DNA from: a bacterium
GTDB taxonomy: Bacteria; ARS69
Length of the DNA stretch: 5,581 bases
Reading direction: 5' to 3'
Assembly (NCBI GenBank): GCA_025774865.1
Contig: JALGZO010000585.1
Coordinates: 1 to 5,581 of the forward strand
Part shown: piece by piece, positions 4,407 to 5,249 of the stretch
How the letters are laid out: every line of letters begins with the position of its first letter
Numbering within the stretch: the first letter of the stretch is position 1
Notes under the pieces: generated by a model
What the model was told of the DNA's origin: nothing
Seen by the model: the letters and a program-made list of their open reading frames with translations, nothing else
Database searches by the model: none
Made by a program: the position numbers and the translations under genes

Positions 4407-4470
4407 GAGCGCTTCCCCCGTTCCGGAGATTGTTCCACAGGATCGGACCGCGCGTCGACGTAGGGGGACG

Positions 4471-4514
4471 AAAAAGAGCGCCGCGCCCGGCGACTGCTCC
4501 GGGGTGCGGCGCTC
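4471..4514 (-). terminator. Intrinsic terminator upstream of and facing the methyltransferase/reductase gene
   Basis: A perfect 9-bp outer stem (4476-4484 with 4506-4514) and a 5-bp inner stem (4486-4490 with 4499-4503) enclose an 8-nt loop, with a 1x2 internal loop between them. On the minus strand the stem is followed immediately by five U residues (4475-4471). The plus strand has no T-tract after the stem, so the signal has a direction. It ends 64 nt before the GTG start. Since no other gene is read on this strand just upstream, premature termination in the leader is the simplest role. Confidence 0.7.
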
Positions 4515-4585
4515 CCTTGTGGAGTGGCCTGAGATTCCCTCGGGGTCTGCGCTGTCCCCGGCGGGGGTCCGGACCCGAGCCGGTG

Positions 4586-4618
4586 ACCCGGGGCCCTTCG
4601 TCCATCAGTACCCCGGGT
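4586..4618. repeat. 8-bp perfect inverted repeat in the divergent intergenic region
   Basis: ACCCGGGG at 4586-4593 and CCCCGGGT at 4611-4618 are perfectly complementary around a 17-nt loop. In the minus-strand RNA this would be an upstream hairpin of the leader; in DNA it could equally be an operator. It lies about 35 bp upstream of the peroxiredoxin -35 box. Confidence 0.5.
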
Positions 4619-4652
4619 GGCGAGTCGGGTTCCCGAGAATCGGGGGCGATCC

Positions 4653-4681
4653 TTGACTCGGACCACAGGCTCCGGAATGAT
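4653..4681 (+). promoter_or_regulatory. Sigma70-like promoter for the peroxiredoxin gene
   Basis: TTGACT (4653-4658) matches 5 of 6 bases of a -35 box. After a 17-bp spacer, AATGAT (4676-4681) matches 4 of 6 of a -10 box. Transcription would begin near 4688, just before the ribosome binding site at 4695, giving a leader of about 20 nt and ruling out the in-frame start codons at 4617, 4677 and 4680. Confidence 0.5.
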
Positions 4682-4694
4682 GCGGGAGTTCGGG

Positions 4695-4701
4695 AAAGGA
4701 G
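4695..4701 (+). promoter_or_regulatory. Ribosome binding site deciding a TTG start for the peroxiredoxin
   Basis: AAAGGAG, a near-consensus Shine-Dalgarno sequence, ends 5 nt before the TTG at 4707. The earlier in-frame GTG (4617) and ATG codons (4677, 4680) have no comparable site. Confidence 0.65.
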
Positions 4702-4706
4702 CCGCC

Positions 4707-5249
4707 TTGACCGTCGAGAGAGCCGGCGTCACGGAGTTCGGGGGAAAGCCCATCACCCTGGTCGGACCCGAGATCCAGGTCGGGGAACGCGCCCCGGCCT
4801 TCGAGGTTTTGGGCACGGATATGCGGCCTCTGTCGTCGGACCTACTCGAGGGGAAGGCACAGATTCTGCTGTCGATCCTCTCGGTCGACACGAACGTCTG
4901 CCGGGCCGAGATGAAGGAGTTCTCGCGTCGGCTCTCGACCCAGCCGGGCCTCGAGATCCTGGTAGTCTCCACCGACCTTCCGTTCAACATGAAGCGATGG
5001 GCCGTCGCCACCGACGTGACGAACATCACCTTCGGATCGGATCACCGGGAGTTGTCGTTCGGCCGCGCGTGGGGCGTTCTGATGAAAGAGGTGCGGCTGT
5101 TCTCGCGCGCCGCGTTCGTGGTGAACCCCGCCGGCGAGGTGACCCACGCGGAGTATGTTCCCGTGATCGGTGACCAGCCGGATTTCGACGCCGTGTGGGA
5201 AGCCGCGAAGGAGGCCGCCACGGCTTCGGAACCTGGCGAACGACGCTGA
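4707..5249 (+). CDS. tpx: Tpx-type thiol peroxidase (atypical peroxiredoxin) lacking the resolving cysteine
   Basis: This 180-residue protein, close to the family's usual 165-175, starts at TTG. The N-terminus MTVERAGVTEFGGKPITLVG is the typical Tpx beta-hairpin, followed by VGERAPAFEV. The active site reads SVDTNVC, with peroxidatic Cys65 and Thr62; Arg134 in LFSRAAFVV is the probable third catalytic residue. STDLPFNMKRW (88-98) is the Tpx-specific helix. In E. coli Tpx the resolving Cys lies 34 residues after the peroxidatic Cys in this helix; here that position is Ala99, and Cys65 is the only cysteine. The usual Pro before Val-Cys is Asn. The enzyme should reduce hydrogen or alkyl hydroperoxides in the cytoplasm, but through a 1-Cys cycle that needs an external thiol. 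It is transcribed from its own promoter, divergent from the methyltransferase/reductase, and converges with the gene at 5256. Confidence 0.9.
   Translation: MTVERAGVTEFGGKPITLVGPEIQVGERAPAFEVLGTDMRPLSSDLLEGKAQILLSILSVDTNVCRAEMKEFSRRLSTQPGLEILVVSTDLPFNMKRWAVATDVTNITFGSDHRELSFGRAWGVLMKEVRLFSRAAFVVNPAGEVTHAEYVPVIGDQPDFDAVWEAAKEAATASEPGERR

Follow-up and report, generated by a model that had tools for sequence, protein, structure and literature searches.

The window, by which we mean the whole stretch of 5,581 nucleotides analysed, carries on its minus strand a gene for a bifunctional homocysteine S-methyltransferase/MTHFR, an assignment made in the earlier note and upheld here by the match to NF006396 (Table 1). 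A thiol peroxidase gene (tpx) with a canonical promoter diverges from it, and the two genes have a 300-nt intergenic region (4407-4706) in common. Because of this divergent layout, minus-strand transcription is the only target that a terminator in the region could have. A thiol peroxidase promoter, TTGACC-17-GATATT, was also observed at L118 6034-6062 (+), and the gene is thus accompanied by a canonical promoter in two genera; the gene itself was not found in the related genomes G002, G003 or G004. On its other side the methionine gene is adjoined by a minus-strand gene (1087-2430) whose bacterial product combines the two lipase maturation factor domains (PF06762, PF25179); this family is familiar mainly from animals.

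Table 1. Features of the locus and of the corresponding hairpins in two related genomes
Feature	Position	Strand	Basis or remark
Bifunctional homocysteine S-methyltransferase/MTHFR gene	4406-2532	-	GTG start; NF006396, 731 bits against a cut-off of 453
Intrinsic terminator hairpin (predicted)	4518-4472	-	Fold; same element in G001 and G002; pair counts
U5 tract of the terminator	4475-4471	-	Sequence; T7 in G001, T4 in G002
ACCCCGG, 5′ side of the hairpin	4505-4499	-	Sequence; perfect complement of leader CCGGGGT
Promoter-like site below the hairpin	4427-4458	-	TCGACG (4458-4453), 18 nt, AACAAT (4434-4429)
CCGGGG segment, possible alternative pairing with the 5′ arm, depending on the transcript start	4556-4561	-	Pairing prediction
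CGGGGTAC, leader element CGGGKTAY, candidate antiterminator	4615-4608	-	Inferred, post hoc
Leader stretch aligning with the G002 leader	4546-4696	-	0 of 500 shuffles as good
Thiol peroxidase promoter TTGACT-17-AATGAT	4653-4681	+	Promoter scan; canonical
Divergent thiol peroxidase gene (tpx)	4707-5249	+	TTG start most likely
Hairpin in G001	C15 11806-11755		T7 tract
Hairpin in G002	C6 9982-10032		T4 tract

The minus strand of the intergenic region is predicted to form a hairpin with 13 outer and 5 inner base pairs, in which the 5′ arm (4518-4506) leads into the inner helix and the loop is AGCAGTCG. Its folding energy of -32.3 kcal/mol (z -3.6) was equalled by none of the shuffled sequences, and the distance from the hairpin to the GTG start of the gene is 64 nt. 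The sequence features expected of an intrinsic terminator, a GC-strong hairpin and an immediate U tract, are both present and are kept in three genera. A strict scan of the whole window returned this hairpin as the only one with a U-run below -25 kcal/mol, and 60 shuffled windows gave 0.08 such hairpins per window at -25 and none at -28 kcal/mol. The earlier note had described a strong U5 hairpin pointing at the gene, with no other minus-strand gene to terminate, and both statements agree with our data: no minus-strand gene lies between the hairpin and 5256, and no second strong terminator was detected on that strand from 5256 to 4518. The further upstream hairpins described in the same note are what GC-rich sequence yields anyway, as the whole 311-nt leader is no more stable than its shuffles (z 0.05).

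To place the hairpin in its lineage, we used a phylum-level group of five genomes, including that of the window. Four of the five carry the MTHFR gene, the other three copies being 66-72% identical to that of the window. A near-identical hairpin stands at the same position before the gene in the window, G001 and G002, which represent three genera with 70-72% identity among their gene proteins; in a fourth genus, G003, no hairpin precedes the gene copy. The 3′ arm CCGGGCGCGGCG (12 nt), the 5′ CGCCGC and the CCC are identical in all three hairpins, and the outer stem varies between the genomes with most of its pairing retained and with two-sided changes at three pairs. The four-fold degenerate sites of the gene are 45-49% identical among the three genera, against a saturation expectation of 39-40%. 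As neutral sites are therefore near saturation, the hairpin, with its identical 12-nt 3′ arm, owes its preservation to selection and not to recency. A covariance model of the hairpin (R1) recovered exactly one strong site in each of the three genomes (E 1e-12 or better) and no further copies elsewhere in them, the next match (E 0.014) being about ten orders weaker. Among 285 genomes outside the phylum there was no copy except for one 35-bit match in an unrelated gene context (G156, L180). The hairpin is thus real, selected and tied to this gene.

The upstream neighbours are different in the three genomes: beyond tpx lies a gene for a protein with a T9SS-type tail in the window and a MarR-type gene in G001, and in G002, as also in G003, tpx is missing and the T9SS-tail gene is directly upstream. 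The hairpin therefore accompanies the methionine gene and not any particular upstream gene, and we rejected the terminator of an upstream gene as a full account. In G002 a second terminator-like hairpin, CCGATCTCC..GGGAGGTCGG-TTTTT, was observed 3′ of the T9SS-tail gene, at approximately L119 4830-4862 (+), about 160 nt above the conserved one.

In agreement with the earlier note, which had recognised no known class, Rfam searches matched no family in the window, in the leader alone or in the loci of G001, G002 and G003; the SAM, SAH, cobalamin, THF and T-box families were without a match at these loci at E values up to 5-10. SAM-I was found in none of the five genomes of the phylum. A cobalamin riboswitch occurs once per genome, away from this gene, and we rejected these loci as evidence of attenuation in the phylum, since the stretch scanned below them has no U-run. 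A match resembling the sul1 riboswitch at 4568-4641 (+) of the window is probably due to chance (E 0.42; 18 bits, with the cut-off at 36.2), and the Rfam matches to mir-2830 and ctRNA, far under their cut-offs, were treated likewise.

In Acidobacteria, mostly Blastocatellia, SAM-II precedes the orthologous gene in 12 of 20 loci, and in one further locus, so that elsewhere this gene is commonly under RNA control, though by another element. SAM-II (SAM_alpha) is best known from alpha-proteobacteria; here it was seen before the homocysteine methyltransferase/MTHFR gene at L043 2794-2869 and at 12 further loci (L040, L041, L044, L049, L050, L051, L053, L056, L058, L061, L064 and L072).

Above the hairpin, the leaders of the window and G002 share some 150 nt of alignable sequence, more than chance would give; the alignment of the G001 and G002 leaders is marginal (33 of 500 shuffles as good), and that of the G001 and window leaders is not significant (108 of 500). 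No compensatory changes were seen there between the leaders of the window and G002, and their common structure does not exceed that of shuffles (206 of 300 as good once the terminator is left out), in a comparison whose power is low with two clearly alignable leaders. A conserved aptamer with covarying helices, as in a riboswitch, was not detected in these two leaders. The riboswitch or attenuator proposed in the earlier note is thus supported in part: the terminator is kept at the gene in three genera, but compensatory changes that would speak for an aptamer were not seen upstream, and the G001 leader is not clearly alignable. A BLAST search of the leader against the phylum revealed no regulon. 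Nor was there a sign of a leader-peptide attenuator, for which a conserved short ORF rich in Met or Cys codons would be expected before the terminator: the ATG frames of the window and G002 leaders, read by eye, share no peptide and are not Met-rich, and the gaps between these leaders are not multiples of three. The word CGCAGAC, common to the three leaders, was dropped: its distance to the terminator varies, and by our own estimate it is expected by chance at about 0.2.

Word matches and alignments of the three leaders also picked out the element CGGGKTAY, which recurs as CGGGGTAC, CGGGTATT and CGGGGTAC at -104, -164 and -108 from the hairpin. Pairing of this element with the 5′ arm is predicted for a range of transcript starts. 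Seven perfect pairs, CCGGGGT with ACCCCGG, make up the match in the window; as read from the sequences, the fourth of these pairs is changed on both sides in G001 and is replaced by a bulge in G002. The pairing ranks in the top 9, 2 and 2% of leader blocks, with a combined post hoc p of about 0.003, or about 0.01 (our own combination of the three fractions, also post hoc) when only GGG-containing blocks are considered, in a test that was devised after the sequences had been viewed. Compared with shuffles, the best antisense duplex that the leader can form with the arm does not stand out (23, 192 and 46 of 200 as good). The CGGGKTAY pairing thus lends weak support to an antiterminator and may serve as a lead. 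The partner suggested in the earlier note, CCCCGG at plus-strand positions 4556-4561, is present, and with some transcript starts it could pair with the arm, but it has no counterpart at that place in G001 or G002.

Concerning the start of transcription, the best promoter-like site on the metF strand of the window leader is TCGACG-18-AACAAT, below the hairpin. It is overlapped by CAATCT (4432-4427), which recurs as TATTCT 42 nt before the gene start in G001 and as TAATCT 55 nt before it in G002, so that each of the three genomes has a -10-like element, YAWTCT, between its hairpin and the gene; the position below the hairpin is also that of the best -10-like element in the window and G001. TATTCT and TAATCT lie within short matches, CCGCTATTCTGCCGG/CCGCTAATCTCCCGG (8 of 500 shuffles) and GGTCCGA..AATCT.CCGGAAC (17 of 500). 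The promoter scores below the hairpin are modest, with p 0.05 in the window and G002 (0.05-0.14 over sites) and p 0.5 in G001, where the -35 element is missing. Above the hairpin, no good sigma-70-like site was found on the metF strand of the window or G001, and G002 has one, at -198. In G003, GCTACCCT was rejected as a -10 element because it is too weak (p 0.38). Taken together, the modest sites below the hairpin fall where the earlier note had placed the start that would refute its reading (4470 to 4406 in the window); a promoter there, if true, would make the hairpin an insulating terminator.

Our tentative preference is for a lineage-specific transcription attenuator. Transcription of the MTHFR gene would begin some 110-160 nt above the hairpin, and RNA polymerase would stop at the hairpin by default; when CGGGGTAC pairs first with ACCCCGG of the 5′ arm, the hairpin would be blocked and read-through would follow, the trigger being perhaps a methionine-cycle metabolite, a protein or the state of translation. 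We infer this upstream start, antiterminator and regulation from the retention of the hairpin at the gene in three genera while the upstream neighbours change, from the pairing rank of CGGGKTAY and from the presence of SAM-II before Acidobacterial orthologues. The missing upstream promoter in the window and G001, with the best -10-like element below the hairpin, argues against an attenuator, as do the lack of covariation above the hairpin and a best arm duplex no better than shuffles; furthermore, the stability of the hairpin is very high in comparison with 5′ terminators, which average -16.5 kcal/mol (PMC2965389), and it is the hairpin and not the leader that is best conserved, the reverse of ordinary riboswitches, where a conserved aptamer is combined with a variable expression platform (PMC13273304). 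As part of the same reading, the sensor might reside inside the terminator hairpin itself, with the unpaired A before CCC and the GAGCA-like loop as the features to consider. In this poorly known phylum the MTHFR gene would then be controlled by a very small riboswitch, or by an attenuator that senses a protein, either of them new; we think this special case unlikely.

Almost as probable, in our view, is an insulating terminator. The gene would then be transcribed from a promoter of its own, located between the hairpin and the start codon, and the hairpin would do no more than stop transcription coming from upstream, in the window that of the T9SS-tail gene through the antisense of tpx. The TCGACG-18-AACAAT site and the recurring TATTCT/TAATCT point to it, as do a stability like that of 3′ terminators and the lack of another strong minus-strand terminator from 5256 to 4518. 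Yet the promoter scores are modest, G001 being without a -35, and the hairpin is nearly unchanged although the upstream genes vary and that of G002 has a separate terminator. The alignment of some 150 nt between window and G002 would also suit an independent small RNA from 4520-4700 that ends at the hairpin, the MTHFR gene starting separately; this is unlikely, however, as no promoter for it was found in the window or G001, its sequence is not kept in G001 and no Rfam small RNA matched. Very improbable is a strongly diverged riboswitch of a known class, for which SAM-II, frequent before the Acidobacterial orthologue, would be the first choice, given the Rfam results at the four loci and the lack of SAM-I in the five genomes.

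The metXZ RNA element of beta-proteobacteria (PMC4239095), found by footprinting, is similar in being a candidate terminator/antiterminator leader of a methionine gene, present in one copy per genome and with its ligand, as here, not identified; it differs in that conservation there covers six leader regions and leaves out the terminator sequence, whereas here the terminator is conserved and most of the leader is not. The HMP-PP (thiS) riboswitch, whose aptamer lies within the terminator (PMC6478431), is a known exception to the pattern of conserved aptamers, and shares with our element the conserved nucleotides within an otherwise classic terminator stem and loop. Its sequence is another one, however, its known motif found no Rfam match here, and our comparison comprises three sequences only. 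SAM-II (RF00521) before the Blastocatellia orthologue has the same gene and leader position, but no SAM-II match was obtained in this lineage. The uncharacterised 5′ terminators of Naville and Gautheret (PMC2965389) also have the same orientation and lie less than 300 nt from the start, and the downstream gene is closer to them than a co-directional gene upstream. The window hairpin is far more stable than their average, and is closer in stability to 3′ terminators (mean -20.2 against -16.5 kcal/mol for 5′ ones; PMC2965389), for which the high GC content accounts in part. As 5′ terminators are no more conserved than 3′ ones (PMC2965389), conservation alone cannot decide between attenuator and insulator.

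If the hairpin is an insulator, it would be an ordinary terminator. Set against neutral sites that are nearly saturated, the part under selection is the terminator itself, and this is uncommon among riboswitches. To our knowledge, nothing is known about methionine control in this phylum. If the attenuator is true, it would be a regulatory element outside the assigned classes that acts on a gene of the methionine cycle, in a phylum in which SAM-I was not detected.
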